Assembly (NCBI RefSeq): GCF_000427095.1
Contig: NC_021487.1
Coordinates: 1,459,381 to 1,523,380, forward strand
Length of the DNA: 64,000 nucleotides
Direction: 5' to 3'
Origin: Chthonomonas calidirosea T49
GTDB lineage: Bacteria; Armatimonadota; Chthonomonadetes; Chthonomonadales; Chthonomonadaceae
Shown here in pieces: positions 10,042 to 60,027 of this stretch (position 1 is its first letter; every line of letters starts with the position of its first letter). The translations under genes and the position numbers were made by a program. Under the pieces are notes generated by a model. That model had not been told where the DNA came from. It saw only the letters and a list, made by a program, of their open reading frames with translations, and ran no database searches.

Positions 10042-10082
10042 AGATAGTCTCGCACTTTTGTCTTTTCCTATTAAGCATACGT

Positions 10083-10260
10083 AAACGACCACGCGCCTAA
10101 AGGTGGCGGCTTTGCTCTAGCACGACAGACGAAGCTGCCTCCGAGCCGTAGAGCCGGTTTACGGCAGCTCGACTGGCAATCGGGCCAGCCGCGATCCCAT
10201 CGCTAGCCCAGCCAAACAGGTGCGAATGTAGGGGCGCAGGTCCCTGCTCCCCTACTCGCA
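10083..10260. repeat. Dispersed intergenic repeat, copy A
   Basis: About 178 bases sharing long identical blocks with copy B at 56800-56980: CTAAAGGTGGCGGCTTTG near one end, GCCCAGCCAAACAG and GCGAATGTAGGGGCGCA near the other. One end folds into a hairpin (10228-10238 with 10245-10255, one internal mismatch, plus outer arms TGCGA/TCGCA). The copy lies between fliI and a decayed methyltransferase gene, whose natural 3' end coincides with the hairpin end. No reading frame, transposase or clear target duplication is visible. It could be a REP- or MITE-like element. Confidence 0.8.
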
Positions 10261-11694
10261 TCATAAAGAATATCGTCCCTTGATAGGGATCATCTCCTTG
10301 TTTCGTACGTTTTGTAACTGCACGATGATACTCAACCACGATCCGCAAACCGCTCAGACGCGCGATCTCCGGATACAGATGGAATCGATCGTTGGCAACC
10401 ACAAAGATCTTCGCGTTCGGTTTTTAATAGGGCAGGAAATTGCGAAACACAGCAGCGATGTCGTGCACATACTCTTGCTGAGCACGACGTGATTTGCCCT
10501 TACGTTTCGGGCCGATCTCCTGCTCATCCTTGCGAGGAAAACCAAACAGTTCATAGGCGTAGATATGCCGACCGTGATAGTCTATCTGGCCTACGTAGGG
10601 CGGAGAGGTAAAGATTCCGTCAATAAAGCGCTCACCCTCTTTCAGGAAGAGATCGGCTGATCCTAAATGAGCCAATTCATTCTTGAGGTTTACTGTACGC
10701 GAATCGGCCTGGAGAATCGTCACCACACAGTCTGAACGCAATTTGTCGAACTGAGCGATCCGACGCGCCGTATCTTCACTGTAGGCATATATCTTTTCGA
10801 TACAGTTGTCAATCGGAACACAGTAGCGATGATGCTTTCTACACCAGTACTCTTTGCCTACCGGGAGGGGAGCCTTAGGGGTGACAAGATCGTAGTGAGG
10901 TATCAGCCGAGACGATCGCACGGCACGACTCAGTACGACACGTAATAGGTCTTGGTAGCTGTAATCAGGAATAAGTTGACGATAGTACGACATCTCCAAT
11001 CGCGCGGGGAGCAAACCATGTGTGTAGATACTCACTTTGGCACTCCCTTAATAAGCACTCTTTCAGTGCTGCCAACTCCTCCCTACAAAAACCACCCCGT
11101 TCTTCTGGAAACAGTGAAAGGTCGTTAGAAGCAGAACCAAGCAGGGCATTGGAGAAAAGGGTTGTCCTTTTTTCGATATCGAGGATCTCAAAGCAAGCTT
11201 TTGCGATATCGTACTTGGCTGTTTTAACGCGCGCGATCAGGCAGTTAAAAGGGGAGATTTCAACCCCGATGGCGTGCATGTTCATCTCATTGGCCTGAAC
11301 TAAAGTGGTCCCAGAGCCCATAAAGGGGTCTAGGATGACATCCTTTGGGCGGAAAAAACGAGCAAGAAACCACTCCACTAGCTGGGGGATGAACTTACCG
11401 AGATAGGGGTGCAACCGATGAACGTGCTTGGCTCTGGAAGGTGGTAAAAACCGAGCTCGGGGTGAAGCCCAGCATGATGATGCTTTTCAAGTCCAGCTTC
11501 TATGAGGGAAAGAAAAAGGCGCAACTCTTTGAGCGAAACGCGCAGCTGGCCACTACTTGCATGGCTGATCTTTTCCCCATCAGGGTTGTATTTAGCATAC
11601 GGCCTCGTTGTATGTAGTCGCGAATGTTATGGGGCGTTTTAGCCACAATGCACGCGGCCTCCTCTAAGGTTACCAACTCAAGATCGGCCGACAT
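10256..11694 (-). pseudogene. Decayed HTH-DNA methyltransferase (DPF/TSPPY type)
   Basis: Joining frames gives one protein: a helix-turn-helix (LEEAACIVAKTPHNIRDYIQ), a linker (KYNPDGEKISHASSGQLRVS), HRLHPYLGKFIPQLVEWFL, motif I DPFMGSGTTLVQANEM, motif IV FTSPPYVGQIDYHG, and a tail with IFVVANDRFHLYPEIARLSG. This is an N4-cytosine/N6-adenine DNA methyltransferase with an N-terminal HTH. The frame is broken near 11597, near 11430 and at the G-run 11006-11009, and an in-frame TAA lies at 10424-10426. No indel in a single tract can explain all four. The start is the ATG at 11694, overlapping the end of an upstream remnant. The 3' end meets repeat A. Confidence 0.85.
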
Positions 11695-19652: not shown

Positions 19653-20091
19653 AAGGACCTCCCTACGCGATCTTAGATCTTTCTTACAGAATATCGCGAA
19701 TCAAGCAAGTAGGTGTCGGTTCGCTCGACGAGGTTGGGCGATCTCAAGGATGTTGCGTGGCGCGTAGCTCCGCATCCGTAAACTCACCGAAAAACCATGT
19801 CAACGGCCGCGCGCCTAAAGGCGGCTTTGGCGCGACAGATATGTCTTCCAACGCAATCGCGCGCTTCGTGCATTCTGCCTTCACAATGAAATTCTTAGAA
19901 GACGCCAACCACACGGTAGCCCTTCGAACGTATAAGAGAAATCGTAGACTTTCGAAGATACGGGATGTGCCTCTAAATCGCGCGGCTTCTGAAAGTGCAG
20001 CTCCACATAGATCACCATCTGGTGCTACTTATAGCCCCCATGCACGTATTAACTAACAAGTGTACATCTTCATTTCACAAGGGAGAACATC
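19653..20091. other. Intergenic region of 439 bases with repeat D and a short ORF
   Basis: The interval holds a partial dispersed repeat (19806-19840) and a 45-codon minus-strand frame (20018-19881). The latter starts MVIYVELHFQKPRDLEAHPV and includes KVYDFSYTFEGLP, a protein-like stretch that may be the remnant of an older gene. A 135-codon plus-strand frame spanning the gap shows no recognisable motif and starts by overlapping the upstream stop, so I do not call it. Confidence 0.35.
19806..19840. repeat. Dispersed intergenic repeat, partial copy D
   Basis: CGCGCCTAAAGGCGGCTTTG followed by GCGCGACAGA matches the conserved left end of repeats A, B and C. The rest of the element is not recognisable here. 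It lies in the gap after the HD-GYP gene. Confidence 0.5.
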
Positions 20092-54748: not shown

Positions 54749-54754
54749 CCCTAC

Positions 54755-54870
54755 GAGCGCGCATCTAAAGGTGTGATGGCTTTGCGCCGGCGCGACAGAC
54801 ACATCGGCGTCCGAGCCGTACGACTGGTTACGGCCTGCGCCGAACGGGTGACGTATGCGTCGCACCCTAC
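54755..54870. repeat. Dispersed intergenic repeat, divergent copy C
   Basis: GCGCATCTAAAGGTG, GGCTTTGCGCCGGCGCGACA and TCCGAGCCGTA match copies A and B over the left half. TGCGTCGCACCCTAC near 54857-54870 looks like a decayed version of the terminal hairpin. It lies between the PhyH gene and the GntR-type gene. The central part is shorter than in A and B. Confidence 0.6.
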
Positions 54871-54976
54871 AACCTCTTTTTCTCTATGGATAAGTGTCAG
54901 CTACTTAACTACTTAACAACGAAGGGGGCGCGCATCCTCCCGCGCGCACATTTTATGAATAAGGAGACAGTTATAT

Positions 54977-56669: not shown

Positions 56670-56799
56670 ACCCTCATTGTACCTTTGCCATCTCTCCTAT
56701 ACACCGAATTTAGCGCAACAACGGCCAACAAAAAAGAGATGAGGAGAATGCGAAGAAGAATGAGATAATCGGCTCCCGCGATCGAGCAGGGGTCACAGC

Positions 56800-56980
56800 A
56801 AACGACTTATGCGTCTAAAGGTGGCGGCTTTGCGCTAGCAGGACCGACCTATCTACCTCAAAGCCGCAGGACTAACTTACAGCAGTCAACTGGCAATGGG
56901 GGCAGCCACGAACGCGACCCGCCAGCCCAGCCAAACAGATGCGAATGTAGGGGCGCAAGGCCCTGCGTCCCTACTTCGCA
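56800..56980. repeat. Dispersed intergenic repeat, copy B
   Basis: About 181 bases homologous to copy A. The terminal hairpin is better kept here: GTAGGGGCGCA (56947-56957) pairs with TGCGTCCCTAC (56964-56974) with one G-T pair, and outer TGCGAA/TTCGCA (56940-56945, 56975-56980) adds six more pairs. The hairpin overlaps the last codons and the TAG stop of the GH35 gene on the minus strand. The repeat fills most of the gap between the GH35 gene and the 178-residue membrane protein. Confidence 0.8.
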
Positions 56981-59900
56981 CGCTCATTGAGCGGACTTCT
57001 TTCAGCAGAAAGCGCTTTCGACGCTTCGAAGGAAAGTTTTCCGCTTGTTTCTAGTTGATAGACCGTTCTGCTTGCCGTCTTCTCGATCCATAGATGCGCC
57101 TCAACAGGAGCGTTGCCCTCTTCATCGAACACTATCAACTCATTCACACCCGGCTTCAGCCAGCATTCAGGCAAGTAGTAGCCGTCAATAGGCACCTTCT
57201 CAGGATAACGGCCTAAATTATGGCCATTAAGCCACACGAAACCACGCGAAAGCCCGCGCGTGGAAAAACGCAGGATGGGATGTGGGCCAAGCCCCTGAGG
57301 TGGCGTGGTGATAAAAGTCGTCCGGTAAAACGTTGGCACGTGGGTTGCTTGCGTTGCCGGCCACGTTTGCCAATGAGCGCGAGACAACCTTCCTTCTCCT
57401 ACGCCACCATGCATCGCCCAGTGCTCTACCGGCCAAACCTCATCGTTCTGTAGCACCCGCAGCGTCACCGGCCCCATAATTCCTCCAGGCCCATCCGTGT
57501 TTTGCACTCGAACCGCCAATAGGTTGGTTCCCTGCTTATTCCAAGCTGCGTCTAAATTGACATCAAACGGCGAGCCCCACCCCTCATGGCGAAACAAGAG
57601 CTTACCGTTGAGAAAGACAGTTCCATTGTCGTCTACATTCTCAAAATGCAATAGATGATGTGCTCCGGGAAGGTTGGGTAAGGAGGTAACGACCCAAGCG
57701 TAGCCGCGACGTCCATGAAACAGATCCTCTCCTACCTTCGCCTCCTGCCATCCCTCGCCCATCAGCGATTCAGGGACGGCGCTGTGGGCATCGGTCGGCT
57801 GCCAGTACCACTGTTCGATAGGCGTCCCACGGAAAGCGCCAGCCATCAGAGTCACCGGCCCCTTTAGCCCCTTGACATCTACAGTATCTAATGCGCCGAG
57901 ATAAGAAAACAGTTTTGGCCTTCCATAATGTGCGGTGAGCACCGCCAAAGTAACCCGACCTGCCGGCAGGGTTAGGGTGATATCGCGGGCAACTTGGTGA
58001 TCGTTGCGCGGCACGATGCGACTTTCAGCAGCTTTGTGTCCGTTTACAAAGACATCAAGCCAATCCCCTCCGTCGCTAAAGTGCAGCGTATACACCCCGG
58101 CTTTCGGCACTTCCAACGTCGTACGATACCAGGCGTAAGCCCCATTATAGCCGTCCGCCCCCATCTCCACCGGGTCGCGGCTCTGAAGCCACCCCTTTGC
58201 TGGGTAGCCCGTGGCCGCCTCTTGATCAGCCAATGAAGCCTGCCATCCGGAGAGTTTGGGTGCCTTTTGAAAGTTTAAAGAGGATGATGACACCGCTAGC
58301 GGCGTTAGCCTGTTTGGGAGCAGATAGGGGCCATACACACAACTTGCGGCATCGAGAGCATCTGGAGCTACGTCGGCCGGACGCTCTGCGTTCACGAAAA
58401 GGTGCCCATGCTTTAAGAAGACGTCGCCGACATAGCGTGGCCCCACTATCACATAATGACGCCCGTTGGCTTCCACAAACCAGGTGCGATCGGCCGCCTG
58501 CTCATTCACAGCTAAAACACGAACGATCTGCTTACCCACCTGAAAGGCATACTCAGCGGCGCCTGCCTCTGGGTAGCGCGGTATGAGGGTTAGGGTGTCT
58601 CCAGATACTTTCATGGCCTGCTCGCCTACAATGAGCCGAACAGGTGCCCCCGATGTTCGAAATATCAAAGGTTCATCTGCCCCATCTCCAATAGGGCCAT
58701 TAACCACTATTGTTGTGATATTGGCCTGTTGGCAGATAGCGTAGATGCGCGCCAGGCCTAGTTCGAGAATGATGTGCGGTAGCAGTGTGTAATGGAGGAC
58801 AATAGGCCGAATTTCTCCCGGCTCTACCTTCAAATTTGCCGCAACCTCCTTCCCATCTAGAGACAGCGCTGTGGTTTGCACCGTATTGCCAGGATTATCC
58901 AGAAAGAGGAGGGTACCGGCAGGTGCCGTTCGCGCCGTGGCATGAATGGTCGGGTTACCTACACATTGGGCGTAGTTTTCCGTGGTGTTGTCGCTGTCTT
59001 CTAGGACAGAAGCAAAGCTCCTTGCAAACCAAGCGGCCCGCTTAAAGTGATAGTAGATAGGCCGCAGATCGCCCGCTTGCCCAATGGCGGCGGCGTAGTC
59101 ATAACTAGCTGCATCCTCATCGTTGTTGGTATAGCCAAAGTTCGAGCCGCCGTGTAGCATGTAGTAGTTGTAGCCGTTCCCTCCATAGGCGATGATCTTC
59201 CATGTGCCGCGTGTGAAATACCGGTCTCTATCGGGCGGCAGAGCGCCGTAGAGGTTGTACCAGCCCGGCCAAAACTCCGTACAGTACCATGGGCTCGTGC
59301 GTCCGGCACTGCTCCATGGCCTATCACCGGCAGGATCAGAGGAGTGATGAAGACCGCTAAAAAAGAACGGTACCTGAATCCCATCTTGAATAGCTTTGTT
59401 ATACAAAAACCGGAAATAGGAGTTTGGCATGTCGGTACCCCACCCCAACGGATGCTCATTTTCCAACTGCACGAGGATAACAGGCCCGCCATGATTGATC
59501 TGGTTTCTCGCCACAATAGGTAGAATTTTATCAAAAAAGGTACCAACCTCTTTCTCAAAGGGCGCATTCGGCTCACGCACGCGCAGGCCTGGCACAAAGC
59601 GCAGCCAAACTGGGTAGCCTCCGCTATCCCACTCAGCACAATAGTAAGGGCCGACACGGCATGTGGCATACATGCCCATCTTCTTAACCAGTTTAAGAAA
59701 AGCGTCGAGATCGGCTCGACCCTCAAAATTCCAAACCCCTTTTTCCGGTTCGTGCACGTTCCAGAAAAGGTAGCTTTGCACCGTGTTGAACCCCGCGCGT
59801 TTCATCCGGAGCAGGCGATCGGCCCAGAGAGCACGCGGCACACGAGCATAGTGCATGCTACCGGAAACAATAAACGTGCGCTTGCCGTCAATAAGAAAAC

Positions 59901-60027
59901 CTTTTCCATCTATGTCAATGAAAGGTTTCGCGGCCGGAGCCGGTGGAAACATCGAGTCGTTTGCGGAGGCGATTAGTGGAAAAAGCGCCATGAAAAGACC
60001 TAAACCGATCCCCAAAAACCGATTCAT
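56971..60027 (-). CDS. Beta-galactosidase, glycoside hydrolase family 35
   Basis: 1018 residues, longer than typical GH35. A signal peptide (MNRFLGIGLGLFMALFPLIA) is followed by the GH35 barrel: FIVSGSMHYARVPRALWADR, then AGFNTVQSYLFWNVHEPEKG. The catalytic acid region is VILVQLENEHPLGW near residue 188 and the nucleophile is in SPWYCTEFWPGW near 248. Several beta-sandwich domains follow (for example TLHFSDGGDWLDVFVNGHKA), which may bind carbohydrate. It removes terminal beta-galactose outside the cell. The stop lies within repeat B, so the last two residues may derive from the repeat. The ATG overlaps the phytoene-synthase-like gene by four bases. Confidence 0.93.
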   Translation of the reverse strand: MNRFLGIGLGLFMALFPLIASANDSMFPPAPAAKPFIDIDGKGFLIDGKRTFIVSGSMHYARVPRALWADRLLRMKRAGFNTVQSYLFWNVHEPEKGVWNFEGRADLDAFLKLVKKMGMYATCRVGPYYCAEWDSGGYPVWLRFVPGLRVREPNAPFEKEVGTFFDKILPIVARNQINHGGPVILVQLENEHPLGWGTDMPNSYFRFLYNKAIQDGIQVPFFFSGLHHSSDPAGDRPWSSAGRTSPWYCTEFWPGWYNLYGALPPDRDRYFTRGTWKIIAYGGNGYNYYMLHGGSNFGYTNNDEDAASYDYAAAIGQAGDLRPIYYHFKRAAWFARSFASVLEDSDNTTENYAQCVGNPTIHATARTAPAGTLLFLDNPGNTVQTTALSLDGKEVAANLKVEPGEIRPIVLHYTLLPHIILELGLARIYAICQQANITTIVVNGPIGDGADEPLIFRTSGAPVRLIVGEQAMKVSGDTLTLIPRYPEAGAAEYAFQVGKQIVRVLAVNEQAADRTWFVEANGRHYVIVGPRYVGDVFLKHGHLFVNAERPADVAPDALDAASCVYGPYLLPNRLTPLAVSSSSLNFQKAPKLSGWQASLADQEAATGYPAKGWLQSRDPVEMGADGYNGAYAWYRTTLEVPKAGVYTLHFSDGGDWLDVFVNGHKAAESRIVPRNDHQVARDITLTLPAGRVTLAVLTAHYGRPKLFSYLGALDTVDVKGLKGPVTLMAGAFRGTPIEQWYWQPTDAHSAVPESLMGEGWQEAKVGEDLFHGRRGYAWVVTSLPNLPGAHHLLHFENVDDNGTVFLNGKLLFRHEGWGSPFDVNLDAAWNKQGTNLLAVRVQNTDGPGGIMGPVTLRVLQNDEVWPVEHWAMHGGVGEGRLSRAHWQTWPATQATHVPTFYRTTFITTPPQGLGPHPILRFSTRGLSRGFVWLNGHNLGRYPEKVPIDGYYLPECWLKPGVNELIVFDEEGNAPVEAHLWIEKTASRTVYQLETSGKLSFEASKALSAERSPLNERAK

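Follow-up and report, generated by a model that had tools for sequence, protein, structure and literature searches.

Intergenic repeats of Chthonomonas calidirosea: probable decayed remnants of the 3' part of an extinct tnpB transposon

A Dispersed Repeat Family

The short repeats found in the window (the whole 64,000-nt stretch of the Chthonomonas calidirosea T49 genome analyzed here) belong to a family of about 18 decayed pieces, dispersed between genes, that all come from the tail of a single extinct transposon of the TnpB (CRISPR-ancestor) type. On the strand opposite to the one first read, the copies correspond, judging by sequence homology, to an IS200/IS605-type tnpB gene at its 3' end and the right end of the transposon; the family is defined by ~130 bp made up of tnpB 3' coding sequence and right end.

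A copy-derived profile (R1), trained on 11 copies, all from the C. calidirosea genome itself, picked out 16 places in the 3.44-Mb genome (3,437,861 bp, one contig), with 19 matches spread over both strands. Two further fragments (at 1369430 and 887926) came from searching with the palindrome and the zinc-ribbon part, bringing the total to 16-18 places. The earlier note, which had proposed a dispersed non-autonomous mobile-element family lying between genes and had suggested a genome-wide count of copies and strands, is thus borne out, with the correction that copy B overlaps a gene (see below). The aligned copies share 70% mean pairwise identity, and the family is therefore old.

An unfiltered R1 scan of the window recovered copies A (10080-10258, E 2e-46), B (56798-56977, E 7e-38), C (54753-54834, E 4e-11), and D (19799-19852, E 6e-6); the best match after these, palindrome echoes aside, had an E-value of 0.15. 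Copies A and B align over almost their full length, as had been observed before (79% identity over 178 positions, E 5e-34). The CTAAAGG..GGCTTTG block, already described as common to A-D, has four occurrences in the window, where 0.01 would be expected; it is now identified as the tnpB stop codon within the right-end palindrome. The family is probably undescribed for C. calidirosea and, as far as the searched literature shows, new in lineage detail, while being ordinary in kind: genetic fossils of a known sort.

Homology to tnpB

The homology to tnpB and the transposon right end is observed. A search of 40 relatives with R1 gave a single strong match (E 1.7e-15), to an Armatimonadetes MAG placed far off within the phylum. 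The match is antisense to a tnpB gene (locus L044) and covers its 3' end; the protein of this gene matches guided_TnpB (NF040570, E 1e-47). Within the bacterial family of Chthonomonas (16 genomes), no convincing R1 homologue was found, the few matches having E-values of 0.04-0.08. Among 29 independently collected tnpB loci, three unrelated ones, none of them used to train R1, matched clearly, always antisense and over the tnpB 3' end and right end: the Armatimonadetes element just described (L109/L131, E 3e-17), Ca. Oscillochloris fontis of the Chloroflexi (L110, E 4e-14), and a locus of genome G103 (L135, E 1.6e-8). In the tnpB sense the consensus ends in ..GLADRIAAGPIASRAAVNRPYGSEAASSVAPEQSRRL, compared with ..GLADVIAAGNISRRAALSQPYASEIAPAIVPGAKSHTL in L109. 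The stop codon of the foreign elements likewise lies inside the right-end palindrome (CCCACACCCTTTAGGGGTGGG in L109, CCCACCAGCTTTAGCGGTGGG in L110), and the terminal octamers of repeats and foreign tnpB elements are alike (TCGTTTAC, TCGCTTAA, TAGCTTAC).

At the protein level, one copy (L033, 2008685-2008849) was found with the Armatimonadetes TnpB as query (43% identity to residues 250-306, E 1e-4). A TnpB-tail HMM scored L033 at 21.8 bits and another copy, L032, at 14.5 bits, the best score of shuffled copies being 8.8 (5,760 frames); both copies retain pieces of the zinc ribbon (RTCPVCGRSAKKHCKTQASFVC-like in L033). Taken by itself, the 46-aa consensus tail had no match in Pfam or NCBIfam, probably because these models end before most of the tail; the DNA profile proved more sensitive.

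No full-length parent was found in the genome. Its intact tnpB genes belong to other subfamilies and were rejected as the parent, since their 3' ends have no R1 match. The tnpB elements of the Armatimonadetes MAG (JADLDR010000012) and Ca. Oscillochloris fontis (NZ_RYFD01000033) have the same TnpB C-terminus, the stop codon in the palindrome, and a similar octamer; however, they carry a long tnpB, whereas the repeats hold at most its last ~60 codons, nearly all broken. Elsewhere in the genome, an open 258-codon frame (L102, C1:2857124-2857441, minus strand) matches the same TnpB subfamily in the N-terminal part alone (49% identity, residues 1-106), has neither RuvC nor zinc ribbon, and precedes a repeat-rich (NQKEIIG) coiled-coil-like ORF; it may be the relic of a truncation or a TnpB domain that was exapted.

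Structure of the Repeats

In the tnpB orientation, the order of parts is an optional left module, a 28-bp palindrome, the start of the zinc ribbon, the TnpB C-terminus, the stop codon in the right-end palindrome, and the terminal octamer. The left module, CATAAAATGTGCGCGCGGAGGATGCGCGCCCTCCTTCGTTGTTAA (CATAAAATGTGCGCGCGGAGGATGCGCGCC), is clear at five places, including copy C. The 28-bp palindrome reads GTAGGGGCGCAGGGCCCTGCGCCCCTAC, and the zinc-ribbon start (TTCGCACCTGT..) has mostly been removed by a deletion common to the copies. The right-end palindrome, CCGCCGCCTTTAGGCGCGCGG, encloses the stop codon, the right end reading ..CCGCCGCCTTTAGGCGCGCGGTCGTTTAC and the terminus GTCGTTTAC, with the terminal octamer TCGTTTAC and GTTTAC in the tnpB sense. 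The copies measured are 90-244 bp long, and the left module brings the length to as much as ~286 bp. Internal deletions differ in extent, both ends are usually retained, and the same right-end sequence terminates the copies.

All four window copies have their tnpB sense on the minus strand. Copy A (10081-10255) consists of the right end (GTAAAC on the plus strand), a tnpB 3' relic, and the 28-bp palindrome (10228-10255). Its right-end palindrome (10089-10109, CCACGCGCCTAAAGGTGGCGG) holds the tnpB stop codon (TAG on the minus strand, 10097-10099) at the same position as in L109 and L110. According to the ORF and the consensus frame, the final ~37 tnpB codons (10097-10210) still form an open frame, continuous with that of a decayed DNA methylase tail; the ORF 10097-10402 (minus strand) runs open through the copy, its last ~37 residues being the TnpB tail. 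The methylase gene itself lies in pieces over 10097-11414 (minus strand), with a stop and frame breaks, and its last piece enters copy A in frame. The earlier view that no copy encodes protein describes most copies today, but the consensus is protein-derived and copy A keeps an open TnpB-tail frame.

Copy B (56798-56974) has the right end, the tnpB relic, and the palindrome (56947-56974). A 1018-aa ORF (56971-60027, minus strand), beta-galactosidase-like by eye, takes its stop codon (56971-56973) from the TAG of this palindrome, and the gene upstream of another copy, L039, likewise has its stop supplied by the repeat palindrome.

Copies C and D are both real, but their extents had been set too short. 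Copy C, previously placed at 54755-54870, spans 54752 to ~54964 and comprises the right end, a shortened tnpB tail, the palindrome (54845-54870), and the shared left module (54909-54964). Copy D, previously 19806-19840, starts at 19799 and reaches ~19897; it lacks the palindrome, and its right end and tail are joined via a deletion to a RuvC-II fragment (..VKAECTKRAIALED), a likeness read by eye against the TnpB of L044 (..AKDTKRAIALEDLQGI). By the same kind of reading, a TKRAIALED-like RuvC-II fragment is retained in both D and copy L035.

The 28-bp Palindrome

The long hairpin reported at one end of the repeats is confirmed: it measures 28 bp in most copies, 88% of the stem cells are paired, and compensatory changes occur at 5 of 12 pairs (12 copies). 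It is a separate module that took the place of the remaining tnpB, and the bases preceding it show no fixed target motif. Solo palindromes of 28-29 bp (GTAGGGGC..GCCCCTAC), with no tnpB tail, lie between genes at 1403881, 1927094, 2072398, and 2697206, and perhaps form a separate small repeat family. By inference, the palindrome may have served as the left end of the element; it is unlike the right-end palindrome and is found alone, and therefore could instead be an unrelated insertion, such as an inserted REP-like palindrome. The long variable arm of a tRNA-Ser(GCT) gene (L161:1456-1548, C1 ~3024692-3024784), GTAGGGGCGTATTGCCCCTAC, mimics the repeat palindrome, probably by coincidence.

The REP-like nature suggested by the earlier note applies to this module alone, the ~130 bp being the tnpB 3' end and right end. 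Like the GTAG-tagged REPs and REPINs (PMC3733652, PMC2817692), it is a short intergenic palindrome that begins with GTAG and preserves its pairing through compensatory changes; it also stands solo at four places. On this view the repeats might be REP elements of the GTAG type (or BIMEs) that a RAYT mobilised and that acquired a tnpB tail. We consider this unlikely. Here GTAG is paired with CTAC in most copies, whereas tagged REPs carry an unpaired GTAG tag at one end (PMC3733652); copy number is low (about 20); the larger shared part is the tnpB tail, to which the palindrome is joined, and copy D has the tail without the palindrome. The search for a REP-associated tyrosine transposase, proposed earlier as a check, found none: the genome has only three Y1 transposase genes (PF01797), each beside a tnpB of another subfamily, and none of the three is near any repeat copy or exact palindrome. 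A REP moved by a RAYT was rejected on these grounds. Two near-identical IS605-type elements with divergent tnpA/tnpB (C1:2364587-2365640 and 2381314-2382276; right end CCGGCCTTCAGGCCGGGGAGGATGTCAA) are also present and were possibly active recently.

Origin and Spread

The repeats are very likely decayed non-autonomous derivatives of an IS200/IS605-type (IS1341-like, tnpB-bearing) transposon. Mobility is suggested by their dispersal, which shows recurring internal and terminal junctions: the palindrome-to-tnpB junction and the zinc-ribbon deletion recur identically in many copies, and a short derivative was therefore copied after the deletion. Independent full-length tnpB insertions that decayed in place, their right-end parts left by chance or convergence, would agree with the existence of longer relics, D and L035 holding a RuvC-II fragment outside the standard unit; such an origin is nevertheless quite improbable, as junctions and deletions shared by many copies need post-deletion copying.

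Transposons of the IS200/IS605 group are moved as single strands by the Y1 transposase TnpA, which recognises hairpins near their ends, and no target duplication is made. PMC6006769 gives the same account of hairpin recognition. The copies fit movement of this type, with palindromes on both sides, asymmetric ends, and no target duplication. The flanking duplications that had been proposed for inspection are absent, no shared word longer than 5 nt being present beside the two ends (14 copies). Terminal inverted repeats are also lacking, since the ends AGTAGGGGC.. and GTAAACGACC.. do not match on inspection; with neither feature present, a MITE was rejected. In the proposed course of events for the decayed tnpB derivative, an internal deletion would have taken out most of tnpB, and the short form would have spread, most likely as single-stranded DNA with no target duplication, through a Y1 (TnpA) transposase supplied in trans and working at the terminal palindromes. 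A matching Y1 transposase would have been present at the time of spread; further internal deletions would have come later, the copies then drifting as junk.

The closest described elements are PATEs (palindrome-associated transposable elements). Those of Haloquadratum walsbyi are short, without inverted repeats or target duplications, and some derive from IS605-type elements by core deletion (PMC3119063), and a PATE-like element of Halanaerobium hydrogeniformans retains 28 nt of left end, only the final 58 nt of its tnpB, and the right end (PMC7290912). The likeness is greatest to HqIRS71 and the Halanaerobium element. The repeats are likewise too short for a transposase (90-244 bp, frames broken), have palindromes near their ends, lack terminal inverted repeats and target duplications, and have an IS605-type origin via core deletion. 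Of the near-terminal IS605-type palindromes, the right one is present; unlike in PATEs, the left one is unrelated to it and also occurs solo, and all copies are strongly diverged. By this comparison, the family is very probably a PATE-like derivative that works like one.

Decay of the Coding Part

Coding constraint on the repeats has been lost. Nearly all of the 11 aligned copies carry a frameshift, stop, or deletion relative to the consensus, in which the open TnpB frame is restored despite their broken frames; copy A is the exception, its tail frame being open to the stop codon with the remainder of the gene gone. Substitutions are spread evenly over the codon positions (66/74/65, of ~395 each, in the 11 copies); the tail is therefore not kept up as protein. 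The RNAalifold consensus energy of the tail is only -4 kcal/mol, with almost no common structure, and there is therefore no sign of upkeep as RNA either. The coding part has been drifting freely since dispersal. Pairing is retained in the palindrome only; selection may account for this, or templated correction of palindromes.

These data bear on two readings of the repeats as functional RNAs. The unit covers the known source of reRNA, which takes in the 3' end of tnpB, the right end and ~16 nt of flanking sequence (PMC8612924), and the copies might thus be orphan guides, still transcribed in omegaRNA-like form, that work in trans for a TnpB and take their guide from the flank beyond GTTTAC. 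This is highly improbable, given the unconstrained substitutions, the lack of conserved RNA structure in the tail and of an Rfam match, and a genome without a cognate tnpB; in the literature searched there is no described case of solo or orphan TnpB guide RNAs. It is just as improbable that such guides, each derived from its own flank, serve one of the genome's TnpB proteins or a visiting element. A conserved regulatory RNA or riboswitch family, to which the better-than-shuffled folding of copy A (z -4.0) might point, is scarcely credible and was rejected, as palindromes can produce such an excess, no conserved fold or Rfam match was found, and the tnpB homology speaks against it. The earlier note had held that membership in a known structured RNA family would undo its proposal; Rfam gave no match in the window at gathering score (best below threshold E 0.68, at copy A), although the region does correspond to the source of TnpB guide RNAs (reRNA/omegaRNA).

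Significance

An unannotated family of intergenic repeats in Armatimonadota is hereby explained as the fossil traces that a now extinct tnpB transposon left behind, with its right end and direction given. Such tails can pass for REPs or structured RNAs, which serves as a warning. The region kept is the source of TnpB guide RNAs, and the relics therefore offer natural material for dating when TnpB was active in the past.
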